A DNA stretch of 49,172 nt, taken from Rhizobium sp. Q54. Its GTDB lineage: Bacteria; Pseudomonadota; Alphaproteobacteria; UBA828. Shown one piece after another: positions 27,321 to 49,172 of this stretch. Numbering within the stretch: the stretch's first letter is position 1; each line of letters starts with the position of its first letter. Location of the stretch: assembly GCA_945892755.1 (NCBI GenBank), contig CAMDDO010000012.1, positions 1 through 49,172 on the forward strand. The letters are read 5' to 3'. The notes beneath the pieces are model-generated. The model saw only the letters and a list, made by a program, of their open reading frames with translations, ran no database searches and had not been told where the DNA came from. Both the position numbers and the translations under genes were made by a program.

Positions 27321-29399
27321 ATGAAACTGGTCGGCGTCGATGTCGGGGGCACCTTCACCGACCTCATCATCACGGACACCGCGACCCAGATGATCGCGAT
27401 CCACAAAGTGCCGACCACGCCCGATGATCCCTCGGTCGGCGTCACCGACGGCATCGTCGCATTGTGCAAACGGAATGGCATCGACCCCGGCTCGGTCGAT
27501 CACGTGTTCCACGGCACCACGATCGCGACCAACGCCGTGCTCGAACATAAGGGCTCGGTCGCCGGCATGATCACGACCGAAGGTTATCGCGACATCATCC
27601 ATATCGGGCGCCACCAGCGGCCCGAGAATTATTCGATCATGCAGGACATTCCCTGGCAGGCGCGTCCCTTGGTGCGTCGCCGCCACCGCCTGACCGTTTC
27701 AGAGCGCCTGACGCCGCCCAAGGGCGAGGTGCTGAAGGTGCTCGATGAAGAAGCCGTGCGCCGTGCCGCGCGCGACTTGAAGAAAGCCGGCGTGCAATCG
27801 ATCGCGGTGTGCTTCCTCTTTTCCTATATCGACCCGCGCCACGAAGAACGGGCGCGCGAATTGATCCTGGAGGAATTCCCCGAGGCCTTTGTCACCACCT
27901 CGGCCCAGGTCGCGCCTCAATTTCGCGAGTTCGAGCGCTTCACGACCGCCGCGATGAACGCCTTCATCGGACCCAAGGTGCGGACCTATGTGAACCGCTT
28001 CGAGGAACGTCTGGAAGGCGCCGGCATCAAAGCCGATCTCCATATCATGGCCTCGAATGGCGGCGTCGCGACCGCGGCCACGGTGGCCGAAGTGCCGGTG
28101 GTCACGCTGCTCTCAGGGCCGGCCGCCGGCGTGCTTGGCGGCGCCTGGGCGGCGGCCCTCTCCGACCGTCAACGCATCATCACCTTCGATGTCGGCGGCA
28201 CCAGCGCCGATATCGGCATCGTGATCGAGGGCCGCACCAGCGAGGCGACCGCGCGCGATACCTGGATCGGCGGCTATCCCGTGCTCGTGCCGATGATCGA
28301 TATTCACACCATCGGCGCGGGCGGCGGCTCGATCGCGCATGTCGATGCGGGCGGCGCGTTTCGCGTCGGCCCGATGAGCGCCGGCTCGCAGCCGGGCCCC
28401 GCCTGCTATGCGCGCGGCGGCACGCGGCCAACCGTGACCGATGCCAATCTCGTGCTCGGGCGTTTGGAGAAGGACAACTTTCTCGGCGGCGAAATGACGC
28501 TCGACGAAGCCGCGGCGCATCGCGTCATCACCGAACTCGCCAAACAAGTGAAGCTTGACAAGCTCGAGGCCGCCGAGGGCGTCATCACCATTTTGAATTC
28601 GAACATGGCCAACGCGATTCGCGCCAAGACCGTGCAAAAGGGTCTCGACCCGCGCGATTTCGCGCTCGTCGCATTTGGCGGTGCAGGGCCCTTGCATGGC
28701 GCCGAGGTCGCCGCGGCGCTCAATATTCCCGAGGTCGTGATCCCGCCGCATCCGGGCATCACATCGGCGGCCGGGCTCCTGACCACCGACATCAAATATG
28801 ATCAGATCAAGACCGAATTCGTGGTCAAGGGCTCGGTCGATCTTGGCAAGCTCTCGGCCGATTTCGTCCAACTCGAGGCGCTCCTGATCAAACAATTCGC
28901 CGCCGATGGCATCGAACGCGGCGGCGTGACGCTGCAAAGGTTCGGCGATCTCCGTTATGTCGGCCAAGGCTATGAGCTCAGGGTCTCCTTCCCTGCCGAT
29001 AAACTCGATGCGGCGGCGCTTGAGCGCGTGTGGAGCGCGTTTCACGATCAGCACAAACGTGAATATGGCCACTTCTTCGCCGAGAGCCCGATCGAGATCG
29101 TCAATATACGGGTCACCGGCATCGGCTTCATGCCGAAGATCGGCAAGCCCACGGTCAGTGACGGCCCTTCGGTCGAGGCGGCGCTGGTCAAGCGCGGCAA
29201 AAGCGCGTTTCGTGTGAACGGCGTATTAGGCACCTATGACACCGCCTATTATCGGCGCGAGCTTTTGCCGCTCGACGCGCCGGTCGCGGGCCCTGCGATC
29301 ATCCTGCAGCGCGACACCACGACCGTGGTGCCGCCAGGCTGGAGCGCGGTCGCCGATCACGGCGGTAATTTGATTTTGCGCGCGGCGCGGAAAGACTGA
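27321..29399 (+). CDS. hyuA: Hydantoinase/oxoprolinase family protein, subunit A
   Basis: HyuA-type subunits bind ATP and, with HyuB, hydrolyse hydantoins or 5-oxoproline-like lactams; acetone and acetophenone carboxylases use related subunits. The 692-residue protein has the actin-fold phosphate loops [14 protein letters not shown] at the start and [13 protein letters not shown] near 290, plus [18 protein letters not shown] and the block [14 protein letters not shown]. Length is normal. The next gene starts 3 bp after its stop, and a racemase gene completes the operon, which makes hydantoin or a related cyclic amide the most likely substrate. A carboxylase third subunit is not present. Confidence 0.93.
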
Positions 29400-29402
29400 C
29401 CC

Positions 29403-31193
29403 ATGGCCCAAGCAAAAACGGCAACCCACCTTGGTTCCAAGCCGATCGACCCGGTGACCGCGAGCGTGATCCAGGGCGCGCTCGAAAGCATCGCGGTCGA
29501 AATGGGCTACAAGCTGATGCGGATGTCCTATTCCAGCATCATCCGCGAGTCGGAAGATTTCGGCGCGGCATTGGTTGACGCCCAAGCGCGCCAATTGTGC
29601 GAATCGCGCCAATCGACGCCGCTGCAATCCGGCCCGATCCCGGGCTATGTCAAAGGCATGATCGGGCTCATGGCCGGGCGGGGCGAGACGCTCAATCCGG
29701 GCGACGTGATCATGCACAATTCGGCCTATCACGGCGCCTCGCATGGGCCCGATGTCGCATTCATCGTGCCGGCGTTTTTCAAGGGCCGGCTGGTTGGTTA
29801 TTCGGTGACGACCGCGCACCATCTTGATATCGGCGCGTCTTCGCCGGGCAGTTGCGGCATTGTCGATTCGCTCGATGCCTATGCCGAGGGCCTGCAATTC
29901 AAGGCGCTCAAGGTCTATGACAAGGGCGTGCTCAACGCGCCGCTCTGGCAGATGGTGCGCGATAATATCCGCGCCTCCGATCTCGTGGTCGGCGACATGG
30001 AGGCGCAAATCGCCGCCGCGCGCATCGGCGCCGAGCGCTTCCTCGAATTGATCGAACGCTATGGGCTCCACACTGTCGAGGCGGCGGGCGATGCGCTGAT
30101 GGATCATTCCGAACGGCTGATGCGTCAGGCGATCGAGGCTCTGCCCGATGGCAGCCATAGTGCGGTCGGCCATGTCGATGGTTTCGAGGACGATCCCGAG
30201 CGGCGCGACTTCAAAATCAAGGTCACGGTCACCATCAAAGGCAGCAATATGACGGTCGATCTGACCGGCACCGACAAGCAGATCGACGATCGCCCGCTCA
30301 ACATGCCGCTCGAAGGCACGGTCGATTGCGCGATCTGGCTCACCGTGCGTTCGATTCTGCTCGATTCCTTCGTGCACGGCCACATCCCGCAGAACAGCGG
30401 CCTGGTGCGCCCGATCACGATCATCGCGCCCAAGGGCACACTGGTGAATCCGACTTTCCCCGCCCCCACCATCGCGCGCTTCTGCCCCGGCAATATCGTC
30501 GCCGACACGCTGATGCGCGCGCTCGCGGACGCTGTGCCGCAGCAAGTGGCGGCCGGCGTCGGCAATTTGAAAGTCATCGCTTATAGCGGCATCCATGGCG
30601 GCGCGCATTGGGTCCACATGGATATTCACGAAGGCAGCTATGGCGGGCGCCATGGCAAGGACGGCATGGATACGGTCGACACGCTCTACGCCAATACGCG
30701 CAACAACCCGATCGAGGATATCGAATCGCATTTGCCGCTCCGCGTCATGCGCTATGAATTGCGCGACGGCAAAGCGGCGCCTGGCCAATGGCGTGGCGGC
30801 ATCGGCTCAACCCGCGAGGTCGAGCTTCTGGAAGACGGCAGCTTCTCGATCGAGGGCGATGGTCATTTGTTCGCACCCTGGGGCTTCAAGGGCGGCGCCG
30901 ATGGCCACACCTCAAAATTATTGTTTCGGCCAAAATCGGGCGGCGAAATGTCGCTGCCCTCGATGATGCCAAACAAACCGACCAAGGCGGGTGATCGCCT
31001 CGTCTTGGTCGGCACCTGCGGCGGCGGCTATGGCGATCCCTTTGAGCGCGACCCCGACGCGGTGCTCTCCGACGTGCTCGACGGCTTTGTCACCTTGGCG
31101 TCGACCAAGACCGATTATGGCGTCGTGATCACGCCCGAAAAGACCATCGATCGCGCGGCAACCGCCGTGCTTCGGCGCGCGCGCCGCGCCTGA
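29403..31193 (+). CDS. hyuB: Hydantoinase/oxoprolinase family protein, subunit B
   Basis: The partner subunit of HyuA, 596 residues, family length. Diagnostic blocks are DPVTASVIQGALESIAVEMG at the start, NPGDVIMHNSAYHGASHGPD, a DLTGTDKQIDDRPLN segment, GGAHWVHMDIHEGSYGGRHG, PGQWRGGIGSTREVEL and the C-terminal GTCGGGYGDPFERDP. It is tightly coupled to hyuA (3-bp gap) and followed 17 bp later by the racemase. It is a diverged paralogue of the lone hyuB-like gene at 44.3 kb. Confidence 0.93.
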   Translation: MAQAKTATHLGSKPIDPVTASVIQGALESIAVEMGYKLMRMSYSSIIRESEDFGAALVDAQARQLCESRQSTPLQSGPIPGYVKGMIGLMAGRGETLNPGDVIMHNSAYHGASHGPDVAFIVPAFFKGRLVGYSVTTAHHLDIGASSPGSCGIVDSLDAYAEGLQFKALKVYDKGVLNAPLWQMVRDNIRASDLVVGDMEAQIAAARIGAERFLELIERYGLHTVEAAGDALMDHSERLMRQAIEALPDGSHSAVGHVDGFEDDPERRDFKIKVTVTIKGSNMTVDLTGTDKQIDDRPLNMPLEGTVDCAIWLTVRSILLDSFVHGHIPQNSGLVRPITIIAPKGTLVNPTFPAPTIARFCPGNIVADTLMRALADAVPQQVAAGVGNLKVIAYSGIHGGAHWVHMDIHEGSYGGRHGKDGMDTVDTLYANTRNNPIEDIESHLPLRVMRYELRDGKAAPGQWRGGIGSTREVELLEDGSFSIEGDGHLFAPWGFKGGADGHTSKLLFRPKSGGEMSLPSMMPNKPTKAGDRLVLVGTCGGGYGDPFERDPDAVLSDVLDGFVTLASTKTDYGVVITPEKTIDRAATAVLRRARRA

Positions 31194-39642: not shown

Positions 39643-41865
39643 ATGACCCAAGAACCCGAGATCACTTCCGAGATCATCGCCAGTCATGGCCTCAAGCCCG
39701 ACGAATATGAACGGGTGATCGAGGCGCTCGGTCGCACGCCAAACCTGACCGAGCTTGGCATTTTCTCGGTGATGTGGAGCGAGCACTGCTCCTACAAATC
39801 CTCGCGCGTCTGGCTAAAGACATTGCCGACCACGGCGCCCTGGGTGATCTGCGGCCCCGGCGAGAACGCCGGCATCATCGATATTGGCGATGGCCTCGCG
39901 GTCGTGTTCAAAATGGAAAGCCACAACCACCCCTCCTTCATCGAGCCCTATCAGGGCGCGGCGACCGGCGTTGGCGGAATTTTGCGCGATGTCTTCACCA
40001 TGGGCGCGCGCCCGATCGCGAATCTGAACGCGCTTCGCTTCGGCTCGCCCGATCATCCGAAGACGCGGCATCTGGTCGCGGGCGTGGTCGCTGGCATTGG
40101 CGGCTATGGCAATTGCATCGGCGTGCCGACGGTCGGCGGCGAATGCACCTTTCACCCGGCCTATAACGGCAACAATCTGGTCAACGCCATGACGGTCGGC
40201 CTGGTCGATGCCAAGCGCATCTTCTATTCGGCCGCCGGCAAACCGGGGCACCCAGTCGTCTATGTCGGCTCCAAGACCGGGCGCGATGGCATTCACGGCG
40301 CGACCATGGCGTCGGCCGAGTTCGACGAAAAATCGGAAGAGAAGCGACCGACCGTGCAGGTCGGCGATCCGTTCACCGAAAAGCTGTTGCTTGAGGCTTG
40401 TCTTGAGCTGATGGCGACCGATGCGATCGAAGCGATCCAGGACATGGGCGCGGCGGGGCTCACCTGCTCCTCGGTCGAGATGGCGGGCAAGGGCGGCACC
40501 GGCATCGAGCTCGATCTCGATCTCGTGCCGCAGCGCGAACGCGGCATGAGCGCCTACGAGATCATGCTCTCCGAAAGCCAAGAGCGCATGCTGATGGTGG
40601 TAAAGCCGGGGCGCGAGGAGATCGCGCGTCGCGTGTTCGAAAAATGGGAGCTCGATTTCGCGATCATCGGACGCGTGACCGAGACCGGACGGCTGGTGCT
40701 CCGCAAAGGCAATCAACTCGCGGCCGATCTGCCCATCACGCCTTTGGTCGACGACGCGCCGGTCTACCGCCGTCCCTATGTCGAGACCCCGCCGCGCGCG
40801 CCGATCAAGATCGAAAGCCTTGCCACTCATCCGCCGCTGCTCGACTCCTTGGTCAAGCTGATCGGCGGGCCGGACCTCTGCTCCAAGCGTTGGATCTGGG
40901 AGCAATATGACCACATGGTGATGGCCGATACGGTGCAGCGGCCCGGCGGCGACGCTGCGGTCGTGCGTGTCCACGGCACCAACAAGGCGCTCGCGATCAC
41001 CACCGATTGCACGCCGCGTTATTGCGCCGCCGACCCCAAGACGGGCGGCGCCCAAGCGGTCGTCGAGGCTTGGCGCAATCTGACCGCGGTCGGCGCCAAG
41101 CCGCTGGCCATCACGGACTGTCTCAATTTCGGCAATCCGGAGCGGCCCGAGGTGATGGGCCAATTCGCCGGCTGCATCCAGGGCATGAGCGAGGCCTGCC
41201 GCGCGCTCGACTTCCCGGTCGTCTCGGGCAATGTCTCGCTCTACAACGAAACCAGCGGCCAGGGCGTGCAACCAACGCCGGCGATCGGCGGGGTCGGCCT
41301 GATCGGCGATGTAACGCGCATGGCGACGCTTGGCTTCAAGGCCGAAGGCGAACCGATTCTCCTGATCGGCGAGACGCGCGGCCATCTTGGCGCCTCGCTG
41401 TACCTGCGCGACGTGTTGGGGCGCGAGGAAGGCCCGCCGCCGCCGATCGATCTCGCGGCCGAGCGGCGGATCGGCGATTTCGTCCGCACGCTGATTGAGC
41501 AAGGCCGCCTCACCGCCTGCCATGACGTGTCGGATGGCGGACTCCTCGTCGCGCTGGCCGAAATGGCGATCGGGGCCTCGCGTGCCGGCCGCCCGATCGG
41601 CGCGACGCTCGCCGCCCCGCCCGCCGGGCTCGCGCCCGCGGCCCATTGGTTCGGCGAAGACCAGGCGCGCTATGTCGTGACCGCGACCTCAAGCGAAGCC
41701 GCGCGGATCGAGGCGGAGGCGAAGGTCGCGGGCATTCCCGCAAACCGCGTGGGGCTTACAGGCGGGCCTGCGTTGACAGTCGAAGGGGCCGGTGCCATAT
41801 CCCTTAGCGAGCTTGAGCGGGCTCACGAGGCCTTTCTGCCCGCTTTAATGGCCGCGCCGGCTTGA
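39643..41865 (+). CDS. purL: FGAM synthase catalytic subunit PurL
   Basis: PurL converts FGAR, ATP and PurQ-derived ammonia to FGAM. The 740-residue protein is the small form that needs PurS and PurQ. Visible blocks are [73 protein letters not shown] and, in the second half, ISTLYNET-like [13 protein letters not shown] and [17 protein letters not shown]. All are intact. The ATG at 39643 is the first usable start and follows a region without a strong ribosome site. Confidence 0.96.
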
Positions 41866-41893
41866 GCCGCGCGGTTCTTCGGAGACTTTCCTT

Positions 41894-42133
41894 ATGCCGA
41901 TGGACGCGCGCGAGATCGAACGACTGATCCGCCAAGACCTGCCCGACGCCGATGTCGTGATCGAGGATTTGCGCGGTGACGGCGACCACTATGCCGCGCG
42001 GGTCGTCTCGGCCTCGTTCACCGGCAAGAGCCGCGTGCAGCGCCATCAATTGGTCTATAAGGCCCTCAAGGGCCGCATGGGCGGCGAGCTTCACGCGCTC
42101 GCGCTGAAAACCGTGACGCCCGACGAAATCTAA
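41894..42133 (+). CDS. BolA-family protein
   Basis: A 79-residue BolA/IbaG-type protein with the expected pattern: [39 protein letters not shown] and [20 protein letters not shown]. BolA proteins bind CGFS monothiol glutaredoxins through a shared [2Fe-2S] cluster, in which a conserved His of BolA (probably in [10 protein letters not shown]) takes part. The glutaredoxin gene follows 25 bp later, so this is a classic bolA-grxD pair placed after purL as in many alphaproteobacteria. Confidence 0.93.
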
Positions 42134-42158
42134 GCCCGCTTCCCCGGAGGAGCCTCGC

Positions 42159-42512
42159 ATGAATACCCAGACTGAAAACAACCCCGCGTTCCAGCGCATT
42201 CGCGGCGACGTCGAGAAGAACGACGTGGTGCTGTTCATGAAAGGCACGCCGGTCTTCCCGCAATGCGGCTTCTCGGCGGCGGTCGTACAGGTGCTGACGC
42301 AGCTCGGCGTCAAGTTCAAGGGCGTCAACGTGCTCGAGGACCCTGAGATCCGCGACGGCATAAAGAGGTTTTCGGACTGGCCGACCATTCCGCAGCTCTA
42401 CGTCAAGGGCGAGTTCGTCGGCGGCTGCGATATCGTGCGCGAGATGTATGAGACGGGCGAGCTGAACGAGCTGCTCACCACGCGCGGCGTCGCGGTGCAG
42501 CCGCAGGGCTGA
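42159..42512 (+). CDS. grxD: Monothiol glutaredoxin, Grx4/GrxD type
   Basis: A 117-residue CGFS glutaredoxin ([17 protein letters not shown]) with the glutathione-binding block [19 protein letters not shown]. It carries and transfers [2Fe-2S] clusters, alone or with BolA. A strong GGAGGAG ribosome site precedes the ATG. The stop is TGA at 42510-42512. The reading frame continues beyond it without interruption into the dioxygenase-like gene, giving an unusual in-frame arrangement that is treated as a separate finding. Confidence 0.95.
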
Positions 42513-42515
42513 GCC

Positions 42516-42920
42516 CTGACCGGCCTTCCGTCCGAGGGATCGGCGCCCAAGACCGTCCACGGCTATCACGCGCACATCTATTTCCGCGATGCGGCCGAGC
42601 GCGAGCGCGCGCTGAAACTGCGCGAGCGCCTGCAGCGCTTCCCGATCGCGTTCGGCCGCGTGTGGGATCAGGCCGTCGGGCCGCATCCCTTGCCGATGTA
42701 TCAGGTGGCCTTCGCGCCGGCGCAATTCGCCGAGCTCGTCCCCTATCTGATGCTAGCGCGTGAGGGGCTGACGATCCTGGTACACCCAGAGACCAGTGAT
42801 GACGTGGCGGATCATTCGAGCCACGCGCTTTGGCTTGGCGCCGTGCTCCCGCTCGATCTCGAGTTCCTGCGGAAATTCGCGCGCGGCGAGGCCGCTATCC
42901 CGGCTCACCCTTCGGGGTAG
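42516..42920 (+). CDS. DOPA 4,5-dioxygenase-like protein with no standard start codon
   Basis: The translated region contains the complete small DOPA-dioxygenase-like domain: HGYHAHIYF, RVWDQAVGPHPLPMYQVAF, LTILVHPETSDDVADHS and HALWLGAVLPLDL, with several conserved His expected to bind iron. From the grxD TGA to the domain start no in-frame ATG, GTG or TTG exists; the first common start codon is the GTG at 42660, well inside the domain. The feature is drawn from a CTG at 42516 as the least unlikely option, with a GGG-type site about 8 nt upstream. Alternatives are translation from another rare codon, stop-codon readthrough from grxD, a lost start (pseudogene) or a sequence error. Its 3' end overlaps the convergent gene by 16 bp. 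Confidence 0.7.
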   Translation: MTGLPSEGSAPKTVHGYHAHIYFRDAAERERALKLRERLQRFPIAFGRVWDQAVGPHPLPMYQVAFAPAQFAELVPYLMLAREGLTILVHPETSDDVADHSSHALWLGAVLPLDLEFLRKFARGEAAIPAHPSG

Positions 42921-44155
42921 ACGTCGAAGGCGATGCCGACCCTCTCCTCCTCGCCCTTGAACGGGATCGTGCCGTGGAAGAGGTAGGACGGGAAGAAGAC
43001 GGCCAAGCCGGGCTCGGGCCTCACCGCGCTGGTCGGCGGCTCGAAACCCACTGGCAGCTTGCAATCGGGTCGCCCGAACTCGATCCACCCCGCGCGGCCA
43101 TTGCCCTCCACCGATAGGCTGCAGGGCGTCGCCACATAATAGCAGCCACTGAGCCAGGCGCCCTCGTGGGTGTGGGTTGGATGCCAGCCGCCCTCGCGGA
43201 GGATCGAGGCGACGATCGTCAGCCGATAGCGCTTCGGTTTCCGGCTGAGGAAAGGATGCGAGGCATCATCGGGCAAGCTATCGCGCAAATGGTCGATCGC
43301 CTGACGCAACGCCCGCTCAAACAGCTGCATGGTGCGGTCGGGCCGGATCGCCATGTCGCCGGTCACCGAGCCACCGTAGGAGACGCGCTGGAATGGCTCC
43401 CAGACTAGCGTCGGGTGGGTTCTGACCGCGCTCTCGAGCGCCGCGTTGAACGCCCCAAGATCGGCGAATTGCGGCGGCACATTCAGGCGCGCGGTCCAGA
43501 CCACCGCATCGAGCTTCAGAAAACGCTCGAACTCACTCGGTTTATCGAGGATTTGCAAGGCCGTGCCGCGATAGGCCCAACCGTTCTGGCAATAGGGCTC
43601 GATTGCCAAACAGCCCTCGGCCGCGGCCAAGGCCTGCTCCGGCCGATCGAGAGAAATGAGTGTTGCGGCAAGGCGATAGCGGGGTTCTTTGATAAACGGA
43701 TCGAGCTTGATCGAGCGCCCAAGCGTTTCCGCCGCCTCGTCCAGCCGGCCGAGGCCGCGCAGGGCATCGCCCCTATTGGCCAAGGCATTCGCATAGTCCG
43801 GCATAAGCGCCAGCGCCCGGTCATAACATTCAAGGGCTTCGGCGTGCTTCTTGCCATCGAGATAGAGATTGCCGAGGTTTTGATGGGCCTCGGCATAGGC
43901 GGGCGCGAGCTCGGTCGCCCGTATCATGCGCGCCAGTGCCTCTTGGTAGCGCCCCTCCTGATAGGCGATCAGGCCGAGCAGATGTTCTGCGGTCGGCTCC
44001 TCGGGTTCGATCTCGAGGACCCGGCGATAGGCCTTCTCGGCCATGGCGAGCCGGCCGGCCCGATGATGCGCGAGCGCCCCTTCAAGGAGGGCCGCCGTGC
44101 CACCCATGCCTTGGCGTGCCTGTTTCGCTTCGCGCCGCCGCTCGCTCCGGCCCAT
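42905..44155 (-). CDS. TPR-repeat protein with C-terminal 2OG-Fe(II) oxygenase domain
   Basis: A 416-residue protein. Residues about 20-190 contain tandem TPR repeats (for example EPTAEHLLGLIAYQEGRYQE, AEAHQNLGNLYLDGKKHAEA and ANALANRGDALRGLGRLDEA). The C-terminal half is a putative 2OG-Fe(II) oxygenase: GWHPTHTHEGAWLSGCYYV supplies the first His cluster, FFPSYLFHGTIPF the distal His, and ERVGIAFDVYP the Arg that would hold 2-oxoglutarate. The TPR part probably presents a protein substrate. I chose the ATG at 44155, since upstream codons lie in the antisense of the divergent hyuB-like gene. Confidence 0.88.
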   Translation of the reverse strand: MGRSERRREAKQARQGMGGTAALLEGALAHHRAGRLAMAEKAYRRVLEIEPEEPTAEHLLGLIAYQEGRYQEALARMIRATELAPAYAEAHQNLGNLYLDGKKHAEALECYDRALALMPDYANALANRGDALRGLGRLDEAAETLGRSIKLDPFIKEPRYRLAATLISLDRPEQALAAAEGCLAIEPYCQNGWAYRGTALQILDKPSEFERFLKLDAVVWTARLNVPPQFADLGAFNAALESAVRTHPTLVWEPFQRVSYGGSVTGDMAIRPDRTMQLFERALRQAIDHLRDSLPDDASHPFLSRKPKRYRLTIVASILREGGWHPTHTHEGAWLSGCYYVATPCSLSVEGNGRAGWIEFGRPDCKLPVGFEPPTSAVRPEPGLAVFFPSYLFHGTIPFKGEEERVGIAFDVYPEG

Positions 44156-44276
44156 GATCTCACTCCGCCCTTCCAACAAAAGTGTACGACCGTCCGGTAG
44201 GTCGGCGGAAGGGCTGGTTGACATGGCTGGCCGTGCCGCCCACCGTTTCCCGTCGACCAAATCCAGGGAGATCGCC

Positions 44277-45968
44277 ATGGCGATGGACATCGTGACGATG
44301 AGCATCGTCAGCTCGGCGATGGTGGCGATCTGCCGCGAGATGGGCGTCAATGTCCAGAAGACGGCGTACTCGACCCTCTTCAGCGAGGCGCTCGACTTCA
44401 CCTGCGCGCTCGCCAGCCCCGAGGGCGAGATGCTGGCGGTCGCCGAATATTGCCCGGCGCAGATCGGCGGCGTGCCCCTCCTCGTCCGTTCGATGGTGCA
44501 GGAGATCGGCCGCAACCAGATCGAGGACGGCGATGTCATCGTCCACAACGACCCGTACCGCGGCGGCCTCCACACGCCCGAGCACACCATGTTCAAGCCG
44601 GTCTTCGTCGAGGGCGAGCTGATGGGCTTCGCGGTCACGGTCGGCCATCTGGTCGAGGTCGGCGGCATGGTGCCGGGCGGCTTTCCGGGCGAGGCCTCCG
44701 AGATCTTCCACGAGGGCTTCCGCGTGCCGCCGGTGAAGATCATTCGGCGCGGCGAGGATGTCGCGGCGGTCTGGAAGCTCCTGCTCGCGAACGTGCGCAC
44801 GCCACGCACCAATTATGGCGACCTCCGCGCGCTCATCTCCGGCGTCGACCTCGGCGCCAAGCGCCTGGCCGAGCTGATCGCCAAACACGGCCGCGCGCCG
44901 TTCAAGCAAATCGCGTCCGACCTGCTCGACTATTCCGAGGCGCGCATGCGGGCCGAGATCGCGGCCTTCCCCGACGGTTGTTATCGCTTCGAGGACGCGG
45001 TGGAGGACGACGGCATCGAGGACAAGGAATTCGCCATCAAGGTTGCCGTCCACGTCCAGGGCGAGGAAGTGGTGATCGACTTCACCGGCTCGGCCGCGCA
45101 GGCCAAGGGGCCGATCAACGCGACCTTGGGCGTCACCTGGTCGGCCTCCTACAACGCGATGCTGCATCTGACCGACGAGACGATCCCGCGCAATTCCGGC
45201 TGCTTCCGCCCGATCAAGGTGATCGCGCCGGCGGGCACGATCATGAACGTGGACTATCCGGGCGCGGAGGTCGGCGGCAATTCGGAGACCCACCCGATCA
45301 TCGTCTGCACCATCTTGGGCGCGATGGCGAAGACCGGCACGCAACGCATCATGGCGTCCGAAGGCACGACCAGCGGCTGCTTCGTGTTCGGCGGGCGCGA
45401 CCCGAGGCTCGGCACCGAGATCTGCGCCTTCGACCTCGCCTATCCCGGCTTCGGCGGACGGCCGTTCGCCGACGGCAATGACGCGACCTCCTCGATCAAC
45501 GCGAATTGCTGCAACACGCCGGTCGAGGTGTTCGAGACGCGCTATCCCTGGCTCATCGAGGCGCTGGCGCTGCGCCCCGATTCAGGCGGGCCCGGCAAAT
45601 TCCGTGGCGGGCTGTCGCTCAGCAAAACCATGCGCTGCCTGGATGACGTGACGGTCAGCCAGATGACCAACAAGCACAAGAAGGCGGCCTGGGGGCTGGA
45701 GGGCGGCAGGCCCGGCATGCTCGGCCAGACGCTCTACCGCGCGGCGAACGGCGCACACTGGCAGACGATCTCGGAGGCGTTCGGCAAGGTGAGCCCGAGC
45801 AAATATTCCAACGTGCGGGTCAAGCCCGGCGACCGCATGGTGATCGCCGCGCCCGGCGGCGGCGGCTATGGCGCGCCCGCGCTGCGCGACCCCGCGATGG
45901 TGACCGAGGATGTGCGCGAGGGGTATGTGACGGAGCGGGCGGCGAAGGAGGTGTATGGGGTGGGGTGA
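44277..45968 (+). CDS. Lone HyuB-type hydantoinase/oxoprolinase family protein
   Basis: A 563-residue HyuB-family protein starting MAMDIVTMSIVSSAMVAI. Family blocks are IEDGDVIVHNDPYRGGLHTP, DFTGSAAQAKGPINA, RNSGCFRPIKVIAP, GGPGKFRGGLSLSKTM and the Gly-rich C-terminus APGGGGYGAPALRDP. The ATG follows a GGGAG ribosome site. Unlike the copy at 29.4 kb it has no hyuA or racemase next to it: upstream is the divergent TPR-oxygenase gene and downstream the restriction-modification genes. Either its HyuA partner lies elsewhere or it has been stranded by insertion of the R-M unit. Its substrate is unknown. Confidence 0.9.
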   Translation: MAMDIVTMSIVSSAMVAICREMGVNVQKTAYSTLFSEALDFTCALASPEGEMLAVAEYCPAQIGGVPLLVRSMVQEIGRNQIEDGDVIVHNDPYRGGLHTPEHTMFKPVFVEGELMGFAVTVGHLVEVGGMVPGGFPGEASEIFHEGFRVPPVKIIRRGEDVAAVWKLLLANVRTPRTNYGDLRALISGVDLGAKRLAELIAKHGRAPFKQIASDLLDYSEARMRAEIAAFPDGCYRFEDAVEDDGIEDKEFAIKVAVHVQGEEVVIDFTGSAAQAKGPINATLGVTWSASYNAMLHLTDETIPRNSGCFRPIKVIAPAGTIMNVDYPGAEVGGNSETHPIIVCTILGAMAKTGTQRIMASEGTTSGCFVFGGRDPRLGTEICAFDLAYPGFGGRPFADGNDATSSINANCCNTPVEVFETRYPWLIEALALRPDSGGPGKFRGGLSLSKTMRCLDDVTVSQMTNKHKKAAWGLEGGRPGMLGQTLYRAANGAHWQTISEAFGKVSPSKYSNVRVKPGDRMVIAAPGGGGYGAPALRDPAMVTEDVREGYVTERAAKEVYGVG

Positions 45969-46053
45969 GCAGCCCTAAGTTAGGTTGACCACATCCCGAG
46001 TGTTAGGGTTGTGCCGCACCTCCGGACGGCGCTCCCCATTCGCAGGATAACTG

Positions 46054-47232
46054 ATGGAGAATCGCTTGTCCCATGGGGCGACGTTCTCATGCGAACATGA
46101 CAGACGAGATACAATGATTGATTTTGGGAGCACTGAAGGGCGCGTGCGGGCAAACGTCTCCGGTCGACCTATCAGGCCTGTACCCGATCGACCCAGAGGT
46201 TCAGTCGTCGATATTTTTTGTGGCGCTGGTGGGCTGACGCATGGTTTTCGATTGGAAGGCTATGCCGTGGCTGCTGGCATCGACGTCGACGAGGCATGCC
46301 GCTACGCGTTTGAACACAACAATGAGGCACCCTTTCTCAGAAAGGACGTCTCATATCTCAGTGCACAAGAGCTTTTGGATTTGTTCTACCAAGGCGAACC
46401 AAAGATTTTAGTCGGGTGCGCGCCTTGCCAGCCGTTCTCGACCTACAATCAGAAGAAAGCTGACCCGAAATGGCGACTGATTCGCCGGTTTGGGGAGCTC
46501 GTCTGCGATACCAAACCTGACATCATTTCGATGGAAAACGTTCCTCGCCTGATGGAATTCAGAGAAGGAAGAGTGTTTGGAGATTTTACGGCGCGATTGA
46601 AAGCAGCCGGTTACCATGTAGACCATCAGATAGTATTTCTGCCGAATTACGGACTTCCACAGCGTCGATCGCGCTTGGTACTCCTCGCATCGCGACACGG
46701 TTCCATTCGGCTTGAAAAACCCACGTTTGAGCCCAACAGCTATCGGACCGTCGAAGAAGCGATCGGTAACCTCCCGGTGCTGAGGGCAGGTGCGATCGAC
46801 CCCCGCGACCCTCTCCATCGTGCAAGCCGCATGTCTGAATTGAATCGCCGGCGGATACGAGCGTCGAAGCCCGGAGGCTCATGGAAGGATTGGAGCGAAG
46901 ATCTCGTGGCGAAATGCCACAGAGCGAAATCGGGTCGCAGCTATGAAGCGGTATACGGGCGAATGAAGGCAGATGAGCCGTCACCCACCATAACCACACA
47001 GTTCTTCGGTTTCGGTAACGGCCGGTTTGGACATCCGCATCAGCACCGTGCGCTCTCGCTAAGAGAGGGAGCCATCCTGCAATCGTTCCCGCGAGATTAC
47101 GCTTTTGTCGCACCGGGAGACGCGATTGAATTCAAGAAATTGGGCCGGATGATCGGCAATGCAGTTCCGGTGTTATTATCCCGCGCAATCGCCAGGACGA
47201 TTAGCGGCCACGTAAAGGAATATGGTCTATGA
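46054..47232 (+). CDS. DNA (cytosine-5-) methyltransferase of a restriction-modification pair
   Basis: C5-methyltransferases put a methyl group on cytosine in a recognition site and protect host DNA. All main motifs are in order: I (DIFCGAGGLTHGF), IV with catalytic Cys about 20 residues beyond the 105th codon from the second ATG (GCAPCQPFSTYNQ), VI (MENVPRLMEF), VIII (PQRRSRLVLLA) and X (IGNAVPVLLSRAIA). The target-recognition region lies between about 250 and 320. I used the ATG at 46054, which has AGGA 6 bp upstream; an ATG at 46114 would remove 20 unconserved residues. The stop overlaps the next gene by 4 bp (ATGA). Base use is less GC-rich than in the chromosome to the left. Confidence 0.94.
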   Translation: MENRLSHGATFSCEHDRRDTMIDFGSTEGRVRANVSGRPIRPVPDRPRGSVVDIFCGAGGLTHGFRLEGYAVAAGIDVDEACRYAFEHNNEAPFLRKDVSYLSAQELLDLFYQGEPKILVGCAPCQPFSTYNQKKADPKWRLIRRFGELVCDTKPDIISMENVPRLMEFREGRVFGDFTARLKAAGYHVDHQIVFLPNYGLPQRRSRLVLLASRHGSIRLEKPTFEPNSYRTVEEAIGNLPVLRAGAIDPRDPLHRASRMSELNRRRIRASKPGGSWKDWSEDLVAKCHRAKSGRSYEAVYGRMKADEPSPTITTQFFGFGNGRFGHPHQHRALSLREGAILQSFPRDYAFVAPGDAIEFKKLGRMIGNAVPVLLSRAIARTISGHVKEYGL

Positions 47233-49088
47233 GTCAAAGTTCTTTCTCTCTGACAATCAGTCTCAACGTCCTTGAGCATCTCGGGATCAATCTCTATAGC
47301 AACGTGCCGTCGGTGCTTTCGGAAATCGTCGCAAACGCGTGGGATGCTGACGCCGAAAAAGTGGAGGTCGATTGGGATAGAGCGAACGGGCGAATTATCA
47401 TCCAGGACGACGGAACGGGCATGACCGAGAATGAGCTAAACGAACGCTTCTTAAAGGTTGGATACCGTCGCAGGGATGAGCAGTCTGGTCTCACTGGCTT
47501 AAAGCGGCATCCCATGGGAAGAAAGGGCATCGGTAAACTCTCTCTATTCTCCATCGCGGGCACCGTCGATATTGAGACCCAAAAAAATGGGCAGAAGAGC
47601 GCCTTTCGGATGAGGCTCAAGGATATCCGCAGCGAAGTTCAAAAAGGAGGCGGCTCCGGCACTTATAGGCCAAGTGGTCTGCCGACAAACAAGATCGACT
47701 TCGAACATGGGACACGCATCACCCTTACGGACCTCCGCCATCGGCAGACGACCGCGACGAGCAAAGCCCTCAGAAAGCGAGTGGCTCGGCGCTTTTCGAT
47801 CCTGGGTGAGCAGTACGATTTCAAGGTTCTAATTGACCGCCAGGAGGTCACCCCGGCCGATCGAGATTACTACAGCAAGTTGCAATACCTATGGACGTAT
47901 GGCGACGAGCATGAGGTTGCAAAGCTGGCAACAAACGCAGAAAAAAGGGAACCCCGACCTGTGCCGGTTTATGACGACCAATTGCATATTGTCGGTTGGC
48001 TTGGCACTGTTAAGGAATCCAAGCAATTAAAGGATGAAGAAGGCGACAACTTAAATAGAATTGCGATTTTTGTACGTGGGAAGATGGCCCAAGAAGATAT
48101 CCTTTCGGATTTTGCCGAACGCGGCGTGTATGCCAGTTATCTCATCGGAGAATTGAAAGTGGACGGTTTCGACCTTTACGATGGGCCACAAACCGAACAC
48201 GACGAGGATGCAGCGACGAGCAGCAGGCAACGGCTTGTAGAGGACGACGAACGATACCAAAAATTGAAGGCCTTTGTCGCGGCCGAGTTGAAATACATCC
48301 AAGGAAAGTGGGCCGATTTTCGGGCGGAAGACGGGACAAAGAGGGCCTTGGAGATACCAGCGGTACGCGCTTGGATAGACGGTCTAAAGCCCGCGGTTCG
48401 AACAAAAGCTCAGAAATGGTTGGGTAAATTGAATAGAATAAATATGGATGATTTAGACGAACAAAAACAATTAATAAAACATGCGGTTCTGGGGTTCGAA
48501 TTTTATAGATTGAACGAAAATTTAGACGAACTTGACAATATTTCTGATGTAACTCTTATAACTGTACTTGAGATTTTTAGGGAATTAGACGGCCTTGAGG
48601 CTAATTTATATGGACAAATCGTACAACAACGGATGAAGGTTATTAGAACTCTTCAAGAAAAAGTCGACGAAAATGCACTGGAGAAGGCCATACAACAGTA
48701 CCTCTTCGACCATCTTTGGCTGCTTGACGCTTCGTGGGAGCGCGCCGAGGGAACGGAGGTTATGGAAAAAAGCGTCACTAAAATGTTCGAAGGGATAACG
48801 GCCAACCTGAGGCCAGAGGAACGCTCGGGTCGTCTCGACATAGGATACAGAAAAGCGGCTGGAGGACACGTCATCATAGAGCTAAAACGCCCAGAACGTG
48901 TCGTAAATCGATCTGAAATGCTTTCTCAATCTGAAAAATACCTATCCGGTATGTTGCGGTTGCTGGAAAAGCAGGGCAATGCTCACGAACCGATAGATAT
49001 CATTTTCGTTCTGGGTAAACCGCCAACTGAATGGGAAAACCCTGGAGGTAGGGATCGGGTCATTAGCCCGTCCTATTCACCACGGTAG
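47229..49088 (+). CDS. MutL-like GHKL ATPase with C-terminal nuclease motif, restriction-enzyme candidate
   Basis: A 619-residue protein. The N-terminal GHKL ATPase has Glu32 and Asn36 in SEIVANAWDADAE, DDGTGM near 60-66 and GRKGIGKLSLF near 97-107. The C-terminal part contains a PD-(D/E)xK-like core: Asp537 in SGRLDIGY and Glu551-x-Lys553 in HVIIELKRP. This architecture corresponds to the MutL-related restriction enzymes (BbrUII/HgiDII group) reported in R-M systems, and the ATGA overlap with a C5-methyltransferase fits. Relatives of HgiDII recognise GTCGAC; whether this one does is unknown. Positions 48420-48700 are strongly AT-rich and look foreign. A mobile origin is likely. Confidence 0.88.
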   Translation: MSQSSFSLTISLNVLEHLGINLYSNVPSVLSEIVANAWDADAEKVEVDWDRANGRIIIQDDGTGMTENELNERFLKVGYRRRDEQSGLTGLKRHPMGRKGIGKLSLFSIAGTVDIETQKNGQKSAFRMRLKDIRSEVQKGGGSGTYRPSGLPTNKIDFEHGTRITLTDLRHRQTTATSKALRKRVARRFSILGEQYDFKVLIDRQEVTPADRDYYSKLQYLWTYGDEHEVAKLATNAEKREPRPVPVYDDQLHIVGWLGTVKESKQLKDEEGDNLNRIAIFVRGKMAQEDILSDFAERGVYASYLIGELKVDGFDLYDGPQTEHDEDAATSSRQRLVEDDERYQKLKAFVAAELKYIQGKWADFRAEDGTKRALEIPAVRAWIDGLKPAVRTKAQKWLGKLNRINMDDLDEQKQLIKHAVLGFEFYRLNENLDELDNISDVTLITVLEIFRELDGLEANLYGQIVQQRMKVIRTLQEKVDENALEKAIQQYLFDHLWLLDASWERAEGTEVMEKSVTKMFEGITANLRPEERSGRLDIGYRKAAGGHVIIELKRPERVVNRSEMLSQSEKYLSGMLRLLEKQGNAHEPIDIIFVLGKPPTEWENPGGRDRVISPSYSPR

Positions 49089-49172
49089 GTGATTATCGCT
49101 TGGGAGCCGCGAGCGTTGCGACGAGGACGCGGCTGGCCGTGGCGCTGGCAGGAGCGCTTTGCGGGTCTGGAT
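49089..49172. other. GC-rich tail after the R-M unit
   Basis: Base composition returns to the high-GC level directly after the stop of the nuclease gene. No gene, repeat or attachment-like duplication was recognised in these 84 bases. Confidence 0.3.

Follow-up and report, generated by a model that had tools for sequence, protein, structure and literature searches.

Apparent interruption of a BbrUII/HgiDII-family restriction gene by an IS1380-family element, beside a C5-cytosine methyltransferase gene that appears intact

The restriction protein of the locus considered here has the architecture of the paraMORC3 proteins, which a passage by Iyer and colleagues presents as a GHKL-S5 ATPase joined to a C-terminal restriction-endonuclease-fold domain, found both inside and outside restriction-modification (R-M) operons (PMC2292703). 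In one protein with the paraMORC3 architecture, VcSduA of Vibrio cholerae, defence depends on both E27 in the ATPase and K557 in the nuclease (PMC12137116). The methyltransferase M.HgiDII is reported to be a 5-methylcytosine (5mC) enzyme for GTCGAC (PMC5867850). The locus studied here lies at the end of a 49,172-nt stretch of contig CAMDDO010000012.1 of Rhizobium sp. Q54; the contig, C12, ends at position 49172 of the stretch, the whole of which we call the window, and it belongs to a 117-contig assembly. A gene for a C5-cytosine methyltransferase (M) overlaps there a gene of the BbrUII/HgiDII restriction enzyme family (R), and the original prediction saw in the pair an R-M unit using a MutL-like ATPase restriction enzyme. 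We favour, with a probability of roughly 85%, a different state of affairs, in which a horizontally acquired cassette of M, R and a Vsr mismatch endonuclease gene had its R broken at codon 613 by an IS1380-family element, so that restriction was lost and M, perhaps with Vsr, survives.

The R open reading frame (ORF), at 47229-49088 on the + strand, encodes 619 aa and matches NCBIfam profile NF050001 (BbrUII/HgiDII family restriction enzyme) at 745.7 bits (cut-off 550) over profile positions 1-606 of 659, and its GHKL ATPase domain matches PF13589 at 79.8 bits (cut-off 25). The ancestral gene is a BbrUII/HgiDII family gene and the present one a disrupted member, an assignment made through the profile. 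Relatives came from a scan of species genomes, which gave at least 553 stretches encoding an R relative among 586 candidates, and the best 80 were kept (the genome loci). Alignment A2 (n=64) consists of a viral-contig relative, L046, the window R and 62 of the 80 genome loci; of the 18 others, L113 runs past the end of its contig, L127 has an incomplete start, L157 and L164 encode a shortened R, and 14 were set aside for size. Because the ATPase and nuclease motif columns are invariant in all 64 rows, the predicted union of a GHKL ATPase with a PD-(D/E)xK-like core at Asp537, Glu551 and Lys553 (D536, E550 and K552 in L046 numbering) is upheld. Membership of the HgiDII/BbrUII group is upheld by the NF050001 score. 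The nearest relatives of the main part of R, among the best 80 and the other matches listed, are L046 and L085, at 73% identity each. The features of the locus are as follows.

46054..47232, + strand: M, C5-cytosine DNA methyltransferase, 392 aa (PF00145, TIGR00675, motifs)
47229..47232, + strand: ATGA, 4-bp overlap of the M stop and the R start (sequence)
47229..49066, + strand: R, remaining 5′ part, codons 1-612 and two bases of codon 613 (NF050001)
47322..47537, + strand: R GHKL ATP-binding motifs E32/N36/D39, D60-G62-G64 and G97RKGIGK103 (columns invariant in 64/64)
48837..48887, + strand: R PD-(D/E)xK core, D537 (48837-48839), E551 (48879-48881) and K553 (48885-48887) (invariant in 64/64)
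49063..49066, unstranded: target-site duplication TTAG, left copy, also the last bases of R (right copy at C11:150-153)
49067..49172 (106 bp), unstranded: left end of the IS1380-family element inserted in R (identity to the C58 copy)
C11:369-815: Vsr mismatch endonuclease gene, just past the R tail (TIGR00632, PF03852)

When the genomes of the order, among them that of the window, were searched with the profile, NF050001 positions 612-659 turned up on another contig of the window's genome, at C11:143-283. This detached tail begins exactly where the window R protein stops and aligns from its first residue with residues 612-659 of L046, with 35 of 48 positions identical, the same count being obtained with L085. 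When the tail was used by itself as query, 80 ORFs matched, best of all those of L046 and L085, and 78 of the 80 belong to the 92 family R ORFs (89 loci). At the two contig ends stand the two ends of one mobile element. Window positions 49064-49172, the 109 bp with which C12 ends, are 100% identical to C58:21149-21257, and C11:1-149, which is the other end of the element, is 100% identical to C58:22626-22774. On C58 the element is complete (1,623 bp, C58:21152-22774), has the inverted ends CCCGTCCTAT / CCCGTCTTAT and carries on the minus strand a transposase ORF of 455 aa that scores 409.4 bits against NF033539 (IS1380; cut-off 180). In R a TTAG adjoins each end of the element. The left edge of the C58 copy reads CTAG, so that copy does not match the TTAG flank pair of R. 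The IS1380 transposase, the terminal inverted repeats and the short target duplication place the element in the IS1380 family. The inserted copy supplies the last R codons, SPSYSPR (all but two bases), and the stop at 49086-49088, and the present ORF consists of 612 native codons and 7 foreign ones. Because the family match breaks at profile position 606, the tail and an element end lie together on C11 and TTAG is common to both junctions, comparison of the contigs shows, as we read it, an R gene split by insertion at codon 613. Elsewhere in the assembly, contig C115 carries at C115:3-343 a diverged right end of an IS1380-type element (341 bp, 84% identical), with CTAG at its visible edge.

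M, by contrast with R, is apparently intact, to judge from its sequence. It scores 179.4 bits against PF00145 (cut-off 22) and 122.9 bits against TIGR00675 (cut-off 100.65), and its motifs are all in place: I at 53-61, IV with PCQ at 121-129, VI with ENV at 160-166, VIII with QRR at 203-213, IX at 332-346 and X at 367-372. Its start codon is uncertain, there being an alternative in-frame ATG at 46114. The predicted C5-methyltransferase overlapping the next gene by 4 bp is confirmed by the PF00145 match and the shared ATGA, and with it the operon-like pairing with R. Such pairing is usual in the family: among the 80 genome loci, M ends at most 150 bp from the start of the R match in 60, and it does so in 23 of the nearest 25. 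A viral contig (L046) and plasmids (e.g. L047 and L048) also carry M-R pairs that are uninterrupted. In plasmid records H38, H44 and H47, methyltransferases about 50% identical to the window M overlap or abut genes for HEPN-like nucleases of the MAE_28990/MAE_18760 family, from which the M lineage may pair with a different partner as well. By analogy with HgiDII, GTCGAC is a plausible site for M. When the window M was compared with 63 partner Ms (n=64; partner threshold at least 300 bits), mean column conservation was 0.67 in the target-recognition region and 0.61 in the catalytic region; a target-recognition region as conserved as the catalytic one suggests, indirectly, that the Ms compared share one site.

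The type of nuclease that R carried was approached through structure models of the 73%-identical relative L046 (whole-protein model, mean predicted local distance difference test (pLDDT) 81.7 and predicted template-modelling score (pTM) 0.65; nuclease-domain model, mean pLDDT 84.5). For the nuclease-domain model, Shedu of Bacillus cereus (8ti9_B) was the sole Foldseek match at E<=0.001 (E 9.7e-4, TM-score 0.37-0.38). By Z score, EndoMS (8.0) and Shedu 8ti9_B (7.4) are tied, close to many unrelated rows, and this comparison is therefore taken as support for a PD-(D/E)xK-like fold only. Pfam SduA_C (PF14082) matches the nuclease domain in 33 of 62 relatives at E<=0.01 (best 2e-7); in L046 it scores 17.1, below the gathering score of 27, and the window R has no listed match at E<=1. 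A sequence search for solved relatives of the nuclease domain gave none at E<=10. In architecture, the GHKL ATPase with a C-terminal PD-(D/E)xK domain places R with paraMORC3 and Shedu type I-D. The ancestral R might, on such grounds, have been a stand-alone Shedu-type antiviral nuclease, triggered by phage products, loosely tied to M and not a site-specific restriction enzyme: it shares its architecture with VcSduA, whose E27A and K557A variants lose protection (passage in PMC12137116), Shedu is the best Foldseek match of its nuclease domain and SduA_C recurs among its relatives, and a partner-type M ending beside R is missing from 20 of the 80 genome loci, although L098 and L147 of these have little upstream sequence. 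We regard this as improbable, given that M adjoins R in three-quarters of the genome loci and nearly all of the nearest 25, that the partner Ms retain a conserved target-recognition region, and that NCBIfam names the family a restriction enzyme, with M.HgiDII, in the part of PMC5867850 cited above, the 5mC enzyme for GTCGAC.

The ATPase half of R invites a more exact comparison than the label 'MutL-like'. The ATPase and transducer module of the L046 model has its best Z score with MORC3 (5ix2_B: Z 22.9, root-mean-square deviation (rmsd) 4.1 over 298 residues, model residues 8-364, at 15% identity), MORC2 also being at the top, and Hsp90-type chains come next (Hsc82 6xlg_A, Z 20.3). Foldseek orders the matches otherwise by E-value, with TRAP1/Hsp90 chains first and MORC2 at rank 8. 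On these models we lean towards a MORC-like ATPase. MutL was considered as the closest relative and rejected: HtpG/Hsp90 chains outscore MutL chains in the sequence matches, and the MutL models reach only 28.9 bits (TIGR00585, cut-off 180) and 29.1 bits (NF000952, cut-off 840). MutL entries are absent from the 50 Z-score rows listed for the L046 module, in which a similarity is still possible. The GHKL ATPase of the original prediction stands, and the label 'MutL-like' is imprecise, the TIGR00585 score lying far below its cut-off and MORC being best by Z.

What the insertion removed can be read from the relatives. The lost tail amounts to 59 residues and in relatives includes Y624, L627 and Y635, each of which 61 of the 64 rows of A2 retain; the count of 63/64 for R620 includes the element-encoded Arg of the window protein, aligned by chance, and R620 was not used as evidence. 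In the L046 model the tail forms a strand (619-623) and a helix (624-645), which follow the D-ExK strands at 534-542 and 545-552. Because the alignment of Shedu 8ti9_B with nuclease-domain model residues 1-166 (L046 474-639; Z 7.4, rmsd 3.7, 137 aligned) runs into L046 residue 639, the lost part appears to belong to the nuclease fold. A full recount covered all 92 family R ORFs (89 loci), L157 and L164 included, with a tail model built from 62 of them, and an alignment, A3, excluded the window protein and L154; the tail is in frame in 87 of the 92. L113, one of those without it, runs off its own contig. In L154 and in the second copy of L143 the tail is present in another frame, L157 has an in-frame stop ahead of it, and in L164 it was not found, the contig ending 125 bp later, much as in the window; these four look disrupted, by repeated decay or by assembly errors.

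It could be argued that the shortened R, with its 612 native and 7 foreign residues, still folds and restricts, and that the R-M unit works. The protein retains its ATPase motifs and D537/E551/K553, its reading frame is uninterrupted up to the stop, and the four family R ORFs just named, none of which runs off its contig, show that tail loss recurs. We judge this quite unlikely, considering that the lost residues hold the near-invariant Y624, L627 and Y635, that the lost strand and helix close the nuclease sheet in the L046 model and form part of the Shedu-aligned stretch, and that so few family members lack the tail in frame. Since the last strand and helix of the modelled nuclease fold are missing from the ORF, restriction has most likely been lost in this genome, and M, presumably expressed, probably still methylates host DNA, while foreign DNA would no longer be cut by this system. 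Of the R-M unit with a MutL-like ATPase that was first proposed, M and the family of R hold, and a working unit is not supported: M appears intact, whereas an IS1380-family element divides the R gene, whose family match ends at 606 of 659.

The third gene of the putative cassette lies on C11, where Vsr is recognised by TIGR00632 (134.5 bits, cut-off 97.85) and PF03852 (98.9 bits); 3′ of it follow an alpha/beta hydrolase gene and an ORF read by eye as ribosomal protein S4. A vsr gene stands directly downstream of R in 13 of the 80 genome loci and 10 of the nearest 25. The GC fraction is 0.51 over 45969-49066 and 0.545 over C11:154-850, against 0.64 in the flanks, and since vsr and the R tail are low in GC, as M and the main part of R are, we infer that the original locus was a single M-R-Vsr island of about 4 kb without the element. 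Within the order (22 genomes) the window's genome alone passes the NF050001 cut-off, and in a sample of the class 2 of 385 genomes do so, the window's genome being one of them; such a sporadic distribution fits horizontal transfer, and the M-R-Vsr locus was apparently acquired in that way. Elsewhere in the window, the 11 other ORFs that were scanned with Pfam (6178-31193 and 39643-45968) look like ordinary host metabolism. They include ABC-type solute uptake, hydantoinase A/B (27321-31193), a second hydantoinase B (44097-45968), a MoaA-like radical SAM protein and a PurL-like protein.

Several observations weigh against parts of this account. The adjacency of C12 and C11 rests on gene continuity and the common TTAG, with no joining read. 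The catalytic residues sit upstream of the insertion, so residual R activity is possible. An empty site, with the hydantoinase B gene of C12 and the alpha/beta hydrolase gene of C11 side by side, was not found in the 22 genomes of the order; stretches for the comparison were taken from G012, G013, G015, G017 and G020, none with both flanking genes, and the island boundaries are consequently drawn from GC. Nor is GTCGAC specifically avoided: the window has 24 where 34.4 are expected (rank 28 of 64 palindromes, not specially rare), the 28 nearest loci have 106 for 161.9 (rank 7/64) and the other 52 loci 176 for 224.3 (rank 9), both mildly low and not singled out. Three of the 24 window sites lie inside M and R. 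Prediction of the site by avoidance, with a Markov expectation applied to the window, neighbouring host DNA and the relatives' loci, was tried and given up, there being no specific depletion and CTCGAG being lower in both locus sets. Least probable of all is that the insertion is an assembly artefact, or is present in part of the population while most cells have an intact R, for although the assembly is in 117 contigs and both junctions are at contig ends, where mis-joins happen, both contigs reach 106-149 bp into the correct ends of one element and have TTAG in common, and a common uninterrupted form would presumably break the contig at the target site, not inside the element.

With these reservations, we propose for the broken M-R-Vsr cassette the following history and mode of action. 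M would methylate cytosine in its own site, probably GTCGAC. Intact R, presumably a dimer, would bind ATP through its MORC-like GHKL module and close as a clamp on DNA, and its Shedu-type PD-(D/E)xK domain, once licensed by the ATP clamp, would cut unmethylated sites, a mechanism suggested by analogy with paraMORC3 and VcSduA. Vsr would repair the T:G mismatches that arise from deamination of methylated cytosine. Insertion of the IS1380-family element at codon 613 would then have left R without the final strand and helix of its nuclease, with M, and perhaps Vsr, remaining as a solitary methylation and repair remnant.

Relatives of the locus are found in mobile and otherwise unusual settings. 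On the IMG/VR viral contig, the uninterrupted M-R pair (L046:2808-5998) stands beside an antirepressor gene with Rha/ANT domains and has on its other side a long ORF taken by eye for a tail tape-measure protein; from this position between phage genes, the family would seem to travel as phage cargo. In Escherichia phage PhiR44_1 (L054:3998-7046), a 38%-identical homologue is annotated ParaMORC3, a Dcm gene faces it from the other strand, and the neighbour genes are annotated GpP/GpQ/GpO/GpA. An uncultured Cenarchaeum chromosome (OY282369.1) gave 7 of the 80 loci (L115, L124, L129, L143, L150, L155 and L159); L124 has three R copies in about 10 kb, the first and second separated by a transposase gene, and no relative of the window M; these copies are possibly solitary Shedu-like nucleases. 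R also occurs near DISARM-like genes, at L107 (MZB and PLD-like domains), L148 (PLD-like domain) and L050 (annotated DrmC), and may share a methyltransferase with them there. A Pfam spot-check of 20 proteins, all but a few of them from M-less loci, gave DISARM-like neighbours and distant C5 methyltransferases, and no single replacement partner.

The practical consequence is a correction to the annotation of this genome, which should list a solitary methyltransferase and a vsr gene and no working restriction system. The novelty here is limited to this member, to its inactivation and to the link of the family nuclease domain to Shedu; among the open-licence PMC papers searched, none names Shedu together with HgiDII or BbrUII, and the link may be published elsewhere. 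More generally, a MORC-like ATPase and a Shedu-like nuclease are combined in the proteins of a widespread family, whose genes usually lie beside a methyltransferase gene. With its predictable cognate site, this family offers a way to test how GHKL ATPases gate the cutting of DNA, and the nearest uninterrupted relatives, L046 and L085, are suitable proteins for that. We put forward tentatively, at well short of even odds, the broader idea that the BbrUII/HgiDII restriction enzymes are Shedu type I-D nucleases governed by a cytosine methyltransferase, in which a MORC-like ATP-driven clamp traps DNA and licenses the nuclease, methylation and not a phage trigger sets self apart from non-self, and Vsr is a guard against mutation. 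If this were true, stand-alone Shedu immunity and classical type II restriction would have one architecture in common, and the present locus would be a natural R-minus, M-plus derivative.

Set beside the systems to which it has been compared, R has with MutL a GHKL-type N-terminal ATPase in common, by weak model matches, while its C-terminal domain resembles Shedu and restriction-enzyme nucleases. It is like MORC in its ATPase and transducer, whereas no nuclease domain is present in the matching MORC chains, which are ATPase-CW or ATPase fragments. With VcSduA the likeness extends, by described architecture, over the N-terminal GHKL ATPase, the middle region and the C-terminal PD-(D/E)xK domain (passages in PMC12137116 and PMC2292703), and the Shedu signature is present in about half of the nuclease domains of R relatives; VcSduA, however, is an antiviral nuclease for which the passage in PMC12137116 mentions no methyltransferase partner, and R overlaps a C5 methyltransferase gene. 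The HgiDII (GTCGAC) and BbrUII systems are alike in having a restriction enzyme at the level of NF050001 and a C5 methyltransferase partner, and differ from the locus in that here R is interrupted by an IS1380-family element and is without the last ~50 positions of the family profile.

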